Below, one piece after another: positions 3,892-9,889 of a stretch of DNA of 64,000 nt. Within the stretch, counting starts at the first letter, position 1. The number at the start of each line of letters is the position of its first letter. Under the pieces are notes generated by a model. The model ran no database searches. It was not told the DNA's origin and was given only the letters and a program-made list of their open reading frames with translations. Made by a program: the position numbers and the translations under genes. Source of the DNA: Acidobacteriaceae bacterium (GTDB taxonomy: Bacteria > Acidobacteriota > Terriglobia > Terriglobales > Acidobacteriaceae); the NCBI GenBank assembly GCA_003131315.1, contig PKUV01000164.1, positions 4,123 through 68,122 of the forward strand. The letters run 5' to 3'.

Positions 3892-4054
3892 GGCTCGAAA
3901 AACTAATCCCGCGGTCGCGGGACAAAACCCAGGGTAGAAGCCGCATGACGGCCTAAGTTACCCCAGTACGATGCTCGGATGGTGTCGTCCGCCATCCTGT
4001 TTCCGTTTACAATTCGGGGGTATTCCTTCACAACTAAAGCTTCGAGGTCCCCGC

Positions 4055-5776
4055 GTGAACATTCGCAGAATTGCCGTGCTCGCCGCCGTTCTTTTCCCGA
4101 TTGCCGCAGTGTTGGCGCAAGAAAAACCAGCAAAACCGCGCGCCGAATCGCACTTTGGCTCGCACCTTCCCCCGGCGGCCATCGCCGCCATGCAGGGCAT
4201 TCGTCCCAATAACATTGAGACCCATGTCCGCTTTCTCTCCCACGATCTTCTCGAGGGACGCGGCACTGGCCAGCGCGGAGGCGACGTTGCCGCCGAATAC
4301 ATCGCTGCGCAGTTTGCGCTCTATGGACTGAAGCCCGCCGGCGAAAACGATTCCTACCTACAGAAAGTCCCGATGGTCGGCATCACGCCCGGCACCGACA
4401 CACGATTCACTCTGGTTCTCGCCAACGGCCAGTCATCAGATCTTAAGCCCACGGATCTTAAGCCCATCGCCCTCAAGCCACTCGACGATTACGTCGCCTA
4501 CGATCAGACTCAGCAACCCGAATCCACGGTTGATGCCGAGATCGTCTACGTCGGTTACGGCATCGAAGCGCCCGAATACAACTGGGACGATTACAAAGGT
4601 GTGGACGTCAAGGGCAAGATCCTGCTCATGCTGGTCAACGAGCCGCCCTCGGACGATCCGAAGTTCTTCACCGGCAAGGCGCTCACTTACTACGGCCGCT
4701 GGGTTTACAAATACGAGGAAGCCGCACGCAAAGGGGCGGTCGGCGCCATTCTCATCCACAAGACCGAAATGGCCAGCTATGGCTGGGACGTCGTGCGCAA
4801 TTCCAACTCCGGCGAGAAGTCCTATCTCAAACTCGACGGCACTCCCATGCTGAAAGCGGCCGCGTGGATCCAGTTAAGTGTTGCGCGCAATCTCGTCGCG
4901 GCCTCCGGTCTGGATCTCGACAAGATGATGGCCGAGGCGACCTCGCGCGACTTCAAGCCGGTACCGCTCCACGTCCGCCTCTCCGCCCACATGACAAGCA
5001 AGGTTCGTCCTTTCGAATCGAACAATGTGATCGCCGTGCTTCCCGGAGCCGACGCAGTTCTGAAAAGTGAAGGCGTGATGTACACGGCGCACTATGACCA
5101 TCTCGGCATACGGCCCGACATGCCCGGCGACAACATCTATAACGGAGCCATGGACAACGCAACCGGCTGCGGCATCCTGATGGAAATCGCTCGTGCCTAC
5201 GCAGGCGCCGCGCAGAAGCCGCGCCGCTCGATCTATTTCGTCTCGGTCACCGCCGAAGAACAAGGCTTGCTGGGCTCCGAATATTTGGGCAAGCATCCCC
5301 CGATTCCGGCGGGCAAGATTTCGCTCGATCTCAACTACGACGACGTGAGCCCGCTCGGCGCGCCCGAAGAAGTCCAGGTTTCCGGAGCCGAGCGAACCAC
5401 GTTTTATCCTGCGGTACAGGCGATTGCTCAGGATTTCCGCTTCAAGATTCGTCCCGATGCGCGCCCCGAAGCTGGACATTACTACCGCTCCGATCACTTC
5501 AGCCTCGCGCGTGTCGGCATTCCAGCGTTTTCCATCAATGAGGGGATGAAGTTCAAGCACCACGATGAAGCTTGGGGCCTCAAGCAGGACGCCGACTACA
5601 CCGCGCATCACTACCACCAGCCGAGCGACGAGTATCATCCCGGCATGGACTACACCTCGGACGCCGCCATGGCGCGCTTCGGTTTCGCGCTTGGCTGGGA
5701 GGCTGCCAATCAGGCGCGTCCCGTCGGCTGGAAGAAAGGCGATGAATTCGAAAGAGCGCGCCGCGCCAGCCAATAG
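4055..5776 (+). CDS. Secreted M28 family zinc metallopeptidase with PA domain
   Basis: 573-aa exported aminopeptidase-like protein. The GTG at 4055 opens a signal peptide (NIRRIAVLAAVLFPIAAVLA). A protease-associated insert spans roughly residues 140-330 (VYVGYGIEAPEYNWDDYKGVDV, GAVGAILIHKT). The co-catalytic zinc site of M28 is complete: TAHYDHLG, NGAMDNATG, VTAEEQGLLGSEY, LNYDD and YYRSDHFS. Such enzymes remove N-terminal residues from peptides outside the cytoplasm. The frame is open to an earlier ATG at 3971, but those codons lack protein character. A perfect 17-bp inverted repeat follows the stop. Confidence 0.92.
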   Translation: MNIRRIAVLAAVLFPIAAVLAQEKPAKPRAESHFGSHLPPAAIAAMQGIRPNNIETHVRFLSHDLLEGRGTGQRGGDVAAEYIAAQFALYGLKPAGENDSYLQKVPMVGITPGTDTRFTLVLANGQSSDLKPTDLKPIALKPLDDYVAYDQTQQPESTVDAEIVYVGYGIEAPEYNWDDYKGVDVKGKILLMLVNEPPSDDPKFFTGKALTYYGRWVYKYEEAARKGAVGAILIHKTEMASYGWDVVRNSNSGEKSYLKLDGTPMLKAAAWIQLSVARNLVAASGLDLDKMMAEATSRDFKPVPLHVRLSAHMTSKVRPFESNNVIAVLPGADAVLKSEGVMYTAHYDHLGIRPDMPGDNIYNGAMDNATGCGILMEIARAYAGAAQKPRRSIYFVSVTAEEQGLLGSEYLGKHPPIPAGKISLDLNYDDVSPLGAPEEVQVSGAERTTFYPAVQAIAQDFRFKIRPDARPEAGHYYRSDHFSLARVGIPAFSINEGMKFKHHDEAWGLKQDADYTAHHYHQPSDEYHPGMDYTSDAAMARFGFALGWEAANQARPVGWKKGDEFERARRASQ

Positions 5777-5779
5777 CCC

Positions 5780-5855
5780 GTGTGGCGCGGACACTCTTGT
5801 CCGCGGCCTTTGAATTTGCTTTGATCTTTCGCGGACAGGAGTGTCCGCGCCACAC
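5780..5855. repeat. 17-bp perfect inverted repeat after the M28 gene (family B)
   Basis: GTGTGGCGCGGACACTC (5780-5796) is repeated in perfect inverse at 5839-5855, with a second nested GTCCGC/GCGGAC pair inside. It starts 4 bp after the peptidase stop, so it could end or process that transcript. A half-copy beginning GTGTGGCGCGGAC lies at 31123 between iscA and hscB, which shows it is a dispersed element rather than a simple terminator; there is no T-tract. Confidence 0.8.
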
Positions 5856-5975
5856 TAATCACGTTACCGCGATAATTTGCGCTTGCACTTGAGTAACTTT
5901 GGACCCGTCCCGGCGACGTGCTAGCCTGCTGCTTAGTATCGCAGTTTCAGCGATTTGCAAGCAGCGCAAGAGACG

Positions 5976-8228
5976 ATGCCCAAGCTCCCGATTTTTCGGT
6001 TGCGTACTTCTGAACCGCCCAGTCGGCCCGATCTTCAATACTACGGGCTCACACTCGCGTTCAGCGATTTGCAACTGGGCGTCGACAATCTCCGCTACGA
6101 CGTTTTTCTCAGCCCGCGCATTACCGCGGATTTAAGTTTTCATCTCGCGCGTTACATCTGCCGCTTCGGCGAGGTGGAATCGCTTTTCGAAATGGACGTT
6201 CCCTCCGCGACCCAAACAAAATTCATACGCGCCGCCGAGGGCACCACCAAACTGCGCAAGCCCGGCCCCGCCGACCTGAGGACTCTGCTGGTCTCGATTC
6301 ATCTCGCGATCCTGAATCGCGCCAAGGCAGAAGGCAATCCATCGGTCGATGTGCTCGGCCGCCTGGCCGTGCTCAAGTTCATACGCACCGAACTGCAAGC
6401 GCAGTTTGCCAGGATTCTCGAACAGTGCCGCATGAAGTCGAAGTCGCTCGAGGGCGTGCGGCAGGCGAAAATGATGCAGACGCAGGAGATCGTCTCCTCT
6501 TTCCAGGTGCACAAGAAGATCATCCTCCGCCGCGCCGGGCAGGAGATGTTTCGTCTGCTTGGCGAAATCGAAAAAGAAACGCTGGCCCGCACTCGCCGCT
6601 CGCTGCTCGGCGAATTACCCGCCGATTGCTATCGTCTGTTCCTCAATCCGCTGATTCTTACCGAAGATGGACGCGACGATTATCTCTGCGCCGAGCACTA
6701 TTACATGTTCGGCAACTTCGACAAAGATCCCGACCGTTTTCCCAGTCTCCGGCAGTTCGCGTTAAATTTTCTGCGTGAACTCGGATACGGGGAAGGCATT
6801 GACGATGAGCATCTGGAGCAGGCGCTCAATGTTCCCGAAAACGCCGCCACGCTCGTTGGCACCGGCAACGGCGAAGACTCCACGCCAGAAGATCGCAATA
6901 GAAAAGACCGCCTCGACATCTGGACCCGTATGCTGCAGCGCGAAGGCGTTCTTTCGCACGTCGTTGCTTCCTATGAAGCCGTTCCTCTGCTCGCCGAATA
7001 TGCGCCCCGGGTGAATCCGCAGCAGATCAAGAACGCGCTGATGTTCCGCGAAGAATCAGAGCGCGTAGAAAGAATAATTGCCGAAAGCCGTCTCCATTCC
7101 GATCGGCTCTTTGCCGCCGTGGGACGCGTAGCCTCCTGCCGCGGCTCGGAGCGCAGCCGCTTTGCCGCGCGTCTTCTGCACGACCTTTTTTGCTATCACC
7201 GCGACCTGCGCGGCCTGGAAGCCCTCAGCGCCGGTCTTGACAGTATCAACCTGGTCAGCGACGACAAAGTCCGCGAACTCTCCACGCTCAACGGCATGCT
7301 CTACGAGTTCCTGCCTCCCGAAGACCAGAAGCCCGCCGAGGATCGTGTGGTTCACCACGTGATCCTTAAGGCCGACGTGCGCGACTCTTCTCGCCTCACC
7401 CGCTCGCTGATGGAAAAAGGCATGAACGCCGCCTCGTATTTCAGTCTTAATTTCTACGATCCGGTAAACAAGTTGCTGGCGAAATACGGCGCCACCAAAG
7501 TCTTCCTCGAAGGCGATGCCATCATTGTGGCGCTGCTCGAGCGCGAAGGCGAAGCCATGCTCAGCGTCGGCCGCACCTGCGTCCTGGCGTGGGAGATTGT
7601 GAGCCTGCTGCGCGAGTACAACGAACTCCTGGAACGCTCCGGTCTACCCCAGATGGAGGTCGGCCTGGGCATCGCCTACCAGGATTCGCCTCCGCTCTAC
7701 CTGATGGATGGCGAGCACCGCATCATGATTTCCGACGCCATCAATGAAAGCGACCGTCTCTCTTCCTGCAGCAAGCGCGTCCGCAAGAAACTCGCGCCCG
7801 ATGCCGGAGTCTTCCAGGTGTACTCGGTGCAGATCGGAGGCGGAGGCAATAACAATGGCAGCACGAGCCCCGAAGCCGGAGCGGAAGAAATGCGCCTTAA
7901 CTACAACGTAGGTGGGATCTGTCTGAGTGAAGCGGCCTTCCGCAAACTGCAGCAGGAAATCTCGCTTTCCCCCTGGGCGGCAAATCTCAGCGAGCCCGGG
8001 TTTACCGGACCATGGATCGACGAGCAGCGCGAGTTCTTCGTCGGCACCGTTCCCATCGCCAATGGAATGTTTCGCAAGATTGCCATCCGCAAGAACCGCA
8101 TCGCCCAGGTCGATGTCCGCGATCTATCCATCTTGCACTGGACCGACCGCTGCTATTACGAAGTGTGCGCAAATCCCGCAGTGTACGCCGCCCTGCCCGG
8201 AGAAAAATCAGCGTCTGCTCAACCTTAG
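5976..8228 (+). CDS. Large protein with class III nucleotidyl-cyclase-like domain
   Basis: 750-aa soluble protein. The first ~450 residues are mainly helical and unrecognised. From about residue 460 it matches a class III adenylyl/guanylyl cyclase domain: ILKADVRDSSRL (first metal Asp), FLEGDAIIVAL (second metal Asp in the GD turn) and ISDAINESDRLSS, which fits the N-x3-R transition-state pair. The Lys that usually selects adenine stands next to the GD motif; here the only nearby Lys is two residues further away (TKVFLEGD), so substrate choice is unclear. ATG 5976 is preferred to the TTG at 5955. It may make a cyclic nucleotide or be a degenerate sensor; no known partner is adjacent. Confidence 0.7.
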   Translation: MPKLPIFRLRTSEPPSRPDLQYYGLTLAFSDLQLGVDNLRYDVFLSPRITADLSFHLARYICRFGEVESLFEMDVPSATQTKFIRAAEGTTKLRKPGPADLRTLLVSIHLAILNRAKAEGNPSVDVLGRLAVLKFIRTELQAQFARILEQCRMKSKSLEGVRQAKMMQTQEIVSSFQVHKKIILRRAGQEMFRLLGEIEKETLARTRRSLLGELPADCYRLFLNPLILTEDGRDDYLCAEHYYMFGNFDKDPDRFPSLRQFALNFLRELGYGEGIDDEHLEQALNVPENAATLVGTGNGEDSTPEDRNRKDRLDIWTRMLQREGVLSHVVASYEAVPLLAEYAPRVNPQQIKNALMFREESERVERIIAESRLHSDRLFAAVGRVASCRGSERSRFAARLLHDLFCYHRDLRGLEALSAGLDSINLVSDDKVRELSTLNGMLYEFLPPEDQKPAEDRVVHHVILKADVRDSSRLTRSLMEKGMNAASYFSLNFYDPVNKLLAKYGATKVFLEGDAIIVALLEREGEAMLSVGRTCVLAWEIVSLLREYNELLERSGLPQMEVGLGIAYQDSPPLYLMDGEHRIMISDAINESDRLSSCSKRVRKKLAPDAGVFQVYSVQIGGGGNNNGSTSPEAGAEEMRLNYNVGGICLSEAAFRKLQQEISLSPWAANLSEPGFTGPWIDEQREFFVGTVPIANGMFRKIAIRKNRIAQVDVRDLSILHWTDRCYYEVCANPAVYAALPGEKSASAQP

Positions 8229-8272: not shown

Positions 8273-9889
8273 TCAGAAACTCCGCCGAACCCGAAACGGA
8301 ATCACCACCACCGCTTCGAGCGCCACCGGTTTCCCGGCTCTGACTGCTGGCAGGAATTTCCAGCGGGCCAGGGCTTTCGCCGCATAAGAATCGAGACGTT
8401 CGTCCGCGCTGTTGAGGACGCGAATGTCGCCCACCTTCCCATCGGAGTGAATGACCGCATAGAGCGTTACCATGCCGTGCACGTTGGCGCGAATCAATTC
8501 CAGCGGATAGCCGGGGTCCGATTTTTCCGTGGCAACCGGCGCCAGCAGCTCCCCTTCTTTCTGTCCCGCCGCGAGTTCCGCAAACCGGATCACCCAGCTA
8601 CCGGTAGAGGAATTCAGATTCGGCATGTTCAGCGTCATCGCATAGAAGCGCTTGCCGCCAAAAACCTGGCGGTCCACGTCGGTGACCTTATCGTCGGAAA
8701 CCGCAGACGCAGCGCGCGCGCCCGGCGTAGCTCCCGATGACGAAAGACTCGCCATCTCGCGTGCGTCGTCCGCGCCCGAGTCCGCCGCGCCCACGTACAG
8801 GCCAGCCGGTAGAGAGCCATTGGTGCGCGTTTTGAAGCCGCCGCTGCCGACTCCTCGACCGCCCGCGCCCTTCGCTTCCAGTTTCGATCCCGCCAAATCT
8901 GGTGTTCCCGAAGCGCCCGGTTTTCCATGCGGAGTCGCGGCGAATGTTCCCCGGCGATTGCCTCCGGGAACAGCCACGGGTCCGCTGGGCGCGACGGGAT
9001 GAATCCCCAAAGCGATCAGCCGTCCGCCCGCGCTGGCACCGCCCACCGCAGCCATGCTCGGCGGCGGGCCCACCGGTTGTACGCCACCGCCCGGCAGACG
9101 TCCTTTGCCGCGCGCCGCCAGCGAATACTGTTCCGCCAGCGTGAGCTGTGGAGCCGGCGCGACCACGTCACTCGAGCCAATGTTCATGATCCCGACGTGT
9201 CCCTTCGTCGATTGCGTTAATTCCGGCGGCGGCGCAATCACGTCCGATTTCATCGCCGCTCGAACCACACGGTCTGGCGCAAACTGCACGTCCGGCGCGG
9301 GCGCCACAACCTGCGTCTCGGGGGCGACTATGCGGGTCAACCGAGCTCGCGTAGCATCCAGCGGAACCGCCGGAACAATAGCTCCCGTGGCAATGATGTT
9401 GGGCAAGGCGACGTCGTGGTCGAGTTTGAGATCGGGCGGCACGACGATGGTTTGAGACCGGTTGTCCGCTTCCCGCGGAACGGAAAGGATCGGCTGCTTC
9501 GCGTAGGCGGGGTCTCCCTTTTGCGCCTTCGGCGCTTCGGATGCGCCCGTGTCGAGCGATGGCAGATATTCTTCCGGCGAATACGTTACCAGCGACGAGC
9601 GATCAAACGCGGCGCGATCCAGAATTTTTTGCTGCCGAATCCACGAGAGCGAAATCGTCCATATGAGAGCAACGGCCGCCGCGTGCAACAGCGCGGATTG
9701 CAGGAATCGTCCCCACGGCAGCTCTTGCTGGACGAAGACATCCCGCCACATGCCGAATTCGTCGTCACCGGCCAACTCCGCCGGGCGAAGAGCCGCGCGA
9801 ACTCCGCGCCAGAACTCCGGGCTCGTGGGATCGCGTTCCACCAAAAATCTCAACAGTTTTTTCTCCGGGGATTCCATCTCTGGTTCCAA
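8273..9889 (-). CDS. TonB C-terminal-domain energy transducer-like protein
   Basis: 538-aa membrane-anchored protein. A cytoplasmic N-terminus of about 60 residues is followed by one membrane segment (LLHAAAVALIWTISLSWI), then a long low-complexity periplasmic region rich in Pro, Ala and Gly. The C-terminal TonB fold reads YPLELIRANVHGMVTLYAVIHSDGKVGDIRVL...LDSYAAKALARWKFLPAVRAGKPVALEAVVVIPF. Such proteins transmit proton-motive force to outer-membrane transporters, but no exbB/exbD or TonB-dependent receptor is nearby. The cytoplasmic extension is longer than in classical TonB. It converges with the cyclase-like gene, with 44 bp between stops. Confidence 0.8.
   Translation of the reverse strand: MEPEMESPEKKLLRFLVERDPTSPEFWRGVRAALRPAELAGDDEFGMWRDVFVQQELPWGRFLQSALLHAAAVALIWTISLSWIRQQKILDRAAFDRSSLVTYSPEEYLPSLDTGASEAPKAQKGDPAYAKQPILSVPREADNRSQTIVVPPDLKLDHDVALPNIIATGAIVPAVPLDATRARLTRIVAPETQVVAPAPDVQFAPDRVVRAAMKSDVIAPPPELTQSTKGHVGIMNIGSSDVVAPAPQLTLAEQYSLAARGKGRLPGGGVQPVGPPPSMAAVGGASAGGRLIALGIHPVAPSGPVAVPGGNRRGTFAATPHGKPGASGTPDLAGSKLEAKGAGGRGVGSGGFKTRTNGSLPAGLYVGAADSGADDAREMASLSSSGATPGARAASAVSDDKVTDVDRQVFGGKRFYAMTLNMPNLNSSTGSWVIRFAELAAGQKEGELLAPVATEKSDPGYPLELIRANVHGMVTLYAVIHSDGKVGDIRVLNSADERLDSYAAKALARWKFLPAVRAGKPVALEAVVVIPFRVRRSF

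Follow-up and report, generated by a model that had tools for sequence, protein, structure and literature searches.

In bacteria, cyclic pyrimidine nucleotides are anti-phage messengers. The catalytic residues of class III nucleotidyl cyclases are the metal-binding aspartates together with Asn1025 and Arg1029, according to PMC9223806. For the cyclase Ma1120, the substrate-specifying residues, K101 and D157, were defined experimentally, and the mutagenic primers printed in that study (PMC4215837) place them four residues before the second metal Asp (minus 4) and seven residues before the transition-state Asn (Asn minus 7), respectively. Among the Pycsar pyrimidine cyclases (PycCs), PMC11224242 names Y50, D94, and R97 as the UTP-recognition residues of BcPycC, and F100, R142, and Q144 as the CTP-determining residues of EaPycC, whose metal aspartates are D102 and D146. 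In EaPycC, F100 thus stands two residues before the first metal Asp, and R142 and Q144 stand four and two residues before the second (minus 4 and minus 2). In an alignment with BcPycC (7r65), Y50 lies at D52 minus 2, and D94 and R97 lie at D96 minus 2 and plus 1; judging from that alignment, D52 and D96 are probably the metal aspartates. The locus described here encodes a protein that shares features with canonical cyclases and with PycCs but lies on a deep branch of its own; in the literature collection searched, the titles listed included none that describes an acidobacterial cyclase of this kind.

The gene lies in a window of 64,000 nucleotides, by which we mean the whole stretch of DNA that was analyzed (Table 1). 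The coordinates given by the original prediction were right: a single frame of 750 codons runs from the ATG at 5976 to the stop codon at 8226-8228, with a TTG at 5955 as an in-frame alternative start. Neither Pfam nor NCBIfam contained a family matching the 750-aa protein, even at E 10. It is nevertheless a real, functional protein gene, because full-length relatives occur in related genomes and dN/dS is low. In comparisons with five relatives, dN/dS was about 0.10-0.15 over the whole gene and 0.045-0.081 over the cyclase core (residues 455-600, five comparisons), where constraint within the gene is strongest.

Table 1. Features of the cyclase-like gene and its immediate neighbors; coordinates are positions in the window.
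Feature	Coordinates	Strand	Basis
Gene for 750-aa protein with helical N-terminus and class III cyclase-like C-terminus	5976-8228	+	ORF, translation, homologues, dN/dS
N-terminal region, residues 1-446, predicted all-helical	5976-7313	+	AlphaFold, Foldseek, VIA
Class III cyclase-like domain, residues about 455-740	7338-8195	+	AlphaFold model, Foldseek/VIA matches, hhalign
K465-A466-D467, Lys at metal Asp minus 2, then first metal Asp	7368-7376	+	K and D each 120/120
R469-D470-S471, phosphate-side loop	7380-7388	+	R469 and S471 invariant
F510-L511-E512-G513-D514, base-selecting strand and second metal Asp	7503-7517	+	F, E, G, and D each 120/120
I583 through N590 and R594, second base-selecting position and transition-state residues	7722-7757	+	Row counts
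Extra arm, residues about 598-645, from helix 4 to next core strand	7767-7910	+	DSSP, pLDDT; hhalign match stops short of the arm
R705, nearly invariant	8088-8090	+	Arg in 117/118 rows with a residue there
M28-family peptidase gene, upstream neighbor (context only)	3971-5776	+	Pfam, synteny
TonB C-terminal-domain protein gene, downstream convergent neighbor (context only)	8273-9889	-	Pfam, synteny

A cyclase-like C-terminus had been predicted from the sequence, with superposition of a structural model on class III cyclases as the suggested check, and the predicted fold is indeed cyclase-like. The full-length AlphaFold model, built on 67 aligned sequences, had a mean pLDDT of 85.7 and a pTM of 0.72. 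When it was compared with the PDB by Foldseek, the top matches were class III cyclases, including the catalytic domain of Rv1625c (7yz9_A, E 8.4e-7) and CyaC (1wc4_A, E 1.2e-6). VIA-align matches to cyclases spanned residues about 436-738, with Z 16.0 for 8hbe_A (176 residues aligned at rmsd 2.6) and Z 15.8 for CyaB (3r5g_A; 182 residues aligned at rmsd 3.2). Profile comparison by hhalign of 31 domains of the family with 27 canonical acidobacterial cyclases gave a probability of 96.0 (E 4.1e-9). Pfam, including PF00211 at its curated cut-off, gave no cyclase match to the 34 whole proteins and 31 domains searched, and no NCBIfam cyclase model recognized the domain either. The single-sequence PDB search was weak: its best match, at E 0.025 over residues 455-615, was bPAC (the beta subunit of a photoactivated adenylyl cyclase, 5mbg), which superposed on the AlphaFold model with a VIA Z of 14.7. 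Unlike the family, bPAC has a BLUF light sensor in place of the helical domain, and a canonical base pocket.

With the canonical class III cyclases (PF00211), the family shares the predicted fold, both metal aspartates, the Asn and Arg of helix 4, and a 'YN...GLP...E.G.GI' stretch. In the AlphaFold model, D467 falls within strand 458-469 and D514 at the turn that joins strands 507-512 and 515-523; N590 and R594 belong to helix 587-596. These modeled places match the expectation for a class III cyclase. By its high-confidence predicted fold (VIA Z about 16) and its profile match (hhalign 96%), the C-terminal domain is a divergent lineage in the class III nucleotidyl cyclase superfamily. Unlike the canonical enzymes, the family lacks a Pfam match, occupies its own deep branch, and carries an arm of about 45 additional residues, the extent of which was set by eye; the tip of this arm is disordered at 623-635 in the model.

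Residue conservation was counted over 120 distinct rows, comprising the window protein and 119 ORFs that are each 500 aa or longer. The window's own ORF recurs among these with an extended start, and certain rows may represent a single protein with different ends. The metal aspartates D467 and D514 and the transition-state asparagine N590 were each present in 120 of 120 rows, and R594 in 119, the single exception being a contig-truncated ORF. Thus, the two metal aspartates and the N-x3-R pair (N590-x3-R594) stand where they had been predicted, and the two aspartates, whose loss among homologues would have spoken against a cyclase, are invariant. From its position only, R705 may be a replacement for the triphosphate-binding Lys1065. 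In the mechanism that we propose, the C-terminal domain would act as a homodimer that converts a nucleoside triphosphate to a 3',5'-cyclic nucleotide, with D467 and D514 binding two metal ions and with N590 and R594 stabilizing the transition state.

Catalytic activity of the domain appears likely from sequence and model, but the same residues could also persist in a protein that only binds. The original prediction had allowed for such an outcome, namely that the protein has become a ligand sensor. On our version of this reading, the domain would be a catalytically dead pseudo-cyclase that binds a nucleotide or other ligand and signals to the helical part. Both of the positions that select a purine in other cyclases are hydrophobic here (F510 and I/V583), and the long branch of the family in our tree would fit a functional change. 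Loss of catalysis, however, usually frees at least one catalytic residue, whereas the four catalytic residues are fixed across the 120 distinct rows and the core is the part of the gene under greatest constraint. We regard a dead enzyme as unlikely, and the ligand-sensor proposal found no support, since every catalytic residue has been kept under strong purifying selection.

The base pocket differs from that of ordinary cyclases and yet is equally invariant. At the four positions concerned, the family has K465, F510, E512, and I583 (I in 118 rows, V in 2), where canonical cyclases have F, K, I/L/M/V, and T. Among the 27 canonical acidobacterial domains, the first metal Asp minus 2 is F in 26 and M in 1; the second metal Asp minus 4 is K in 25, S in 1, and E in 1; its minus 2 is I, L, M, or V in 25, Q in 1, and E in 1; and Asn minus 7 is T in 26 and G in 1. 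The family further has Ser (S471) in place of the canonical Phe at metal Asp plus 4, and Ser in place of Gly at Asn minus 4. The register at F510 is gap-free in the hhalign alignment (Y-G-A-T-K-V-F-L-E-G-D against the canonical Y-E-G-T-L-D-K-F-I-G-D), while the assignment of I583 to Asn minus 7 was made by counting back on the predicted strand 581-585 and is a matter of judgement, as hhalign puts a four-residue gap alongside. The substrate-specifying positions of Ma1120 correspond here to F510 and I/V583. Neither the Lys or Glu that adenylate and guanylate cyclases have at the second metal Asp minus 4, nor the Asp or Thr (adenylate cyclase) or the Cys, Gly, Thr, etc. (guanylate cyclase) at Asn minus 7, is found in any of the 120 rows.

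An altered purine-selecting position had been predicted, and F510 bears this out as a member of an invariant set. The accompanying suggestion, that the usual Lys has been displaced by two residues, holds only in part: there is a Lys (K508) two residues upstream of F510, but it is conserved in only 113 of 120 rows (T in 4, Q in 2, R in 1), as against 120 of 120 for F510 and E512. The invariant change is therefore Lys to Phe, accompanied by a Glu at minus 2 from the second metal Asp, and not a shifted Lys. It looks as if Phe and Lys have been swapped between strand 1 and strand 2, with one Glu added. Because the pocket is rebuilt, the preferred base is probably chosen otherwise than in adenylate and guanylate cyclases.

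Taking these features together, we think it probable, from sequence and predicted structure, that the family is an active class III cyclase lineage with an altered choice of base, governed by a new helical domain. In the proposed mechanism, K465, F510, E512, and I583 would direct a base choice unlike that of adenylate and guanylate cyclases, and the 446-residue helical N-terminus would sense a signal and set the activity of the cyclase. An unusual signaling nucleotide is possible because the nucleobase pocket is built differently and because a large helical half precedes it; the invariant set K465, F510, E512, and I/V583 favors the 'unusual cyclic nucleotide' of the original prediction. A more specific and decidedly tentative version is that this is a Terriglobia chromosomal cyclase making cUMP, cCMP, or another non-standard cyclic nucleotide, which would have reached a PycC-like pocket independently (K465/E512/F510 for Y/D/S-A) and would serve everyday signaling outside phage defense, controlled by a new 446-residue helical sensor domain. 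The enzyme may instead be an adenylate or guanylate cyclase after all, with K465 or E512 making the purine contact from another strand position. E512 lies on the same strand as, and two residues from, the Glu position of guanylate cyclases; if Phe and Lys traded places (first metal Asp minus 2, second metal Asp minus 4), a Lys could have moved without being lost; and one canonical cyclase (L204) has Glu at minus 2 along with a normal Lys. Against this, neither a K at the beta-1 position nor an F at minus 4 occurs among the 27 canonical cyclases. A purine bound through a different contact seems, on the sequence, a doubtful proposition of about the same likelihood as a pyrimidine or unusual nucleoside triphosphate, and a dead sensor is less likely than either. 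The invariant K465, F510, and E512 are directly testable residues.

The positions at which PycCs select UTP or CTP are the family's invariant unusual positions, K465, F510, and E512. For comparison, we assembled 15 PycC-like proteins, nine of which adjoin a Pycsar or cNMP/TIR effector, recognized by its annotation or by Pfam. All 15 have Tyr in strand 1, Ser at plus 4, and Arg at plus 1; minus 2 is Asp in 12 and Ile or Val in 3, and minus 4 varies among Ser, Ala, Asn, and Gly. The family and the PycCs thus have in common Ser at plus 4, a residue other than Lys at minus 4, an acidic residue at minus 2, and an aliphatic one at Asn minus 7. At the positions of the Tyr, Asp, and Arg of BcPycC, however, the family has K465, E512, and A515, the last directly after the second metal Asp. 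It also differs from the PycCs in having N-x3-R where they mostly have N-x3-K, in its length of 750 aa with a helical N-terminus, in the absence of an effector gene, and in its separate branch.

These shared pocket residues, and the match of the PADLOC PycC model PDLC02368 to 17 of 34 members (best E 2.1e-6), raise the possibility that the family is a Pycsar-type anti-phage pyrimidine cyclase. The PADLOC match is unspecific, because an ordinary cyclase (L203) also matches the PycC models, with E values reaching 1.3e-26. In a tree of 57 domains, the family, the canonical cyclases, and the PycCs formed three groups (support 100/99, 94/91, and 96/87, respectively); the family had a branch length of 3.06 changes per column, and the deep order of this tree is not to be trusted, since long branches meet there and drew a program warning. 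The phylogeny of homologues proposed with the original prediction thus sets the family on its own deep branch, apart from the canonical cyclases and the 15 PycCs. By hhalign, the family and PycC profiles matched with a probability of 7.4, in contrast to 98.8% for the canonical and PycC profiles. In addition, the PycC Tyr and Arg are absent, the gene stands in chromosomal housekeeping synteny and was found on neither plasmids nor viral contigs, and no gene encoding an effector (TIR, TM, or other) lies next to it, its neighbors being the M28 peptidase and TonB-domain protein genes. We have therefore rejected membership in Pycsar, which seems very improbable. Given the separate groups in the tree, the low hhalign probability, and the unspecific PADLOC match, the resemblance of the pockets is best read as convergence or coincidence. 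A conserved, non-mobile cyclase lineage with a pocket rebuilt at the PycC positions would be a natural candidate for everyday signaling by an unusual cyclic nucleotide.

A PycC model run across the phylum matched 62 of 297 genomes at E 1e-10. This tally is uninformative on the family, because the three loci read from it were two PycC-like genes (L210 and L211) and one ordinary cyclase (L222). One of these loci (L210:538-2175) is an acidobacterial Pycsar pair, in which a PycC (6e-53 to BcPycC, 7r65) lies beside a cNMP-binding/TIR effector. Tandem pairs of PycC-like genes were found on plasmids of Arthrobacter sp. NtRootC7 (L240:1501-2929) and Streptomyces sp. NBC_01558 (L243:605-2202); in the latter, a Pycsar effector comes next. 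Three PycCs of about 320 aa (L249, L250, and L251) form a subgroup with Ile or Val for Asp two residues before the second metal Asp; two of the three adjoin an annotated Pycsar effector.

The N-terminal region of about 450 residues had been described as matching nothing recognized, and this held across Pfam, NCBIfam, PDB sequence, Foldseek, and VIA searches. Modeled alone, residues 1-446 gave a pLDDT of 86.3 and a pTM of 0.83, with helices nearly throughout. They had no PDB sequence match at E 10, and the best Foldseek hit, at E 0.28, fell short of the threshold of E<=0.001; the best VIA match, Sec6 at Z 6.6, is within the chance range for helical models, with unrelated helical proteins close behind. 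Known sensor domains (BLUF, PAS, GAF, CHASE2, etc.) likewise gave neither a Pfam match at E 10 nor a convincing fold match. The absence of a match does not prove a new fold; the family would nonetheless define a new helical regulatory domain. Because the region stands before a cyclase, we infer that it is a sensor or regulator, and many of its charged positions are invariant in homologues. Relatives from other families of the class have an insertion near residue 280, with split matches near 278-281, which suggests two N-terminal sub-domains.

The gene was present in 52 of 101 related genomes searched. In the window's class, 118 of 399 genomes had a match to the family, a few of them to the cyclase domain only. 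In a sample of the phylum, the full-length gene occurred in 6 of 396 genomes, all six from the window's own family of bacteria and including the window's genome; six more weak matches were confined to the cyclase part, and of these, the five that were read are ordinary class III cyclases. In a scan of genome contigs, the best 80 of 446 relatives were all titled as Acidobacteriota or Terriglobia-type bacteria. A plasmid search gave no match to the family, viral contigs gave no relative (13 pattern matches, none confirmed), and a search of PHROGs returned weak, unrelated matches only; a mobile or viral origin was rejected on these grounds.

The family gene is chromosomal and in housekeeping synteny in Terriglobia, whose members are soil acidobacteria. 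It follows the M28 peptidase gene by 199 bases on the same strand. Among 130 loci with the family gene, relatives of the TonB gene were found in at least 84, of the M28 gene in at least 58, of a redoxin gene in at least 60, and of a MutY-like gene in at least 48; many of these loci are short, and some are the same genome in two collections. In three loci from genomes of family f7 (L048, L049, and L050), the gene comes after those for YjeF/Carb_kinase (nnr) and TsaE, also housekeeping, as identified by Pfam in L048 and by eye in L049 and L050. The neighbors give no hint of a pathway, because they are housekeeping genes that change between families.

In the 101 genomes, by a table compiled by hand, both the family and PF00211 were found in 27, the family only in 25, PF00211 only in 14, and neither in 35. 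Other divergent cyclases could be missed in such a count, because PF00211 does not see the family. The family thus provides a cyclase candidate where ordinary class III cyclases were not found: 25 of the 52 family-bearing genomes, the window's included, had no PF00211 match over the cut-off. The window's genome has 18 cNMP_binding-domain matches over the cut-off. Between the M28 gene and the family gene, at 5780-5855 of the window, is an inverted repeat with a 26-bp stem (DNA fold z -10). Its core, CGCGGACACTC(C/T)TGTCCGCG, has 59 copies in the genome (51 exact and 8 with one mismatch; 34 forward and 25 reverse), compared with 0 for the reversed control. Several times, the core occurs in head-to-head pairs about 44 bases apart, as in a REP/BIME-like family.
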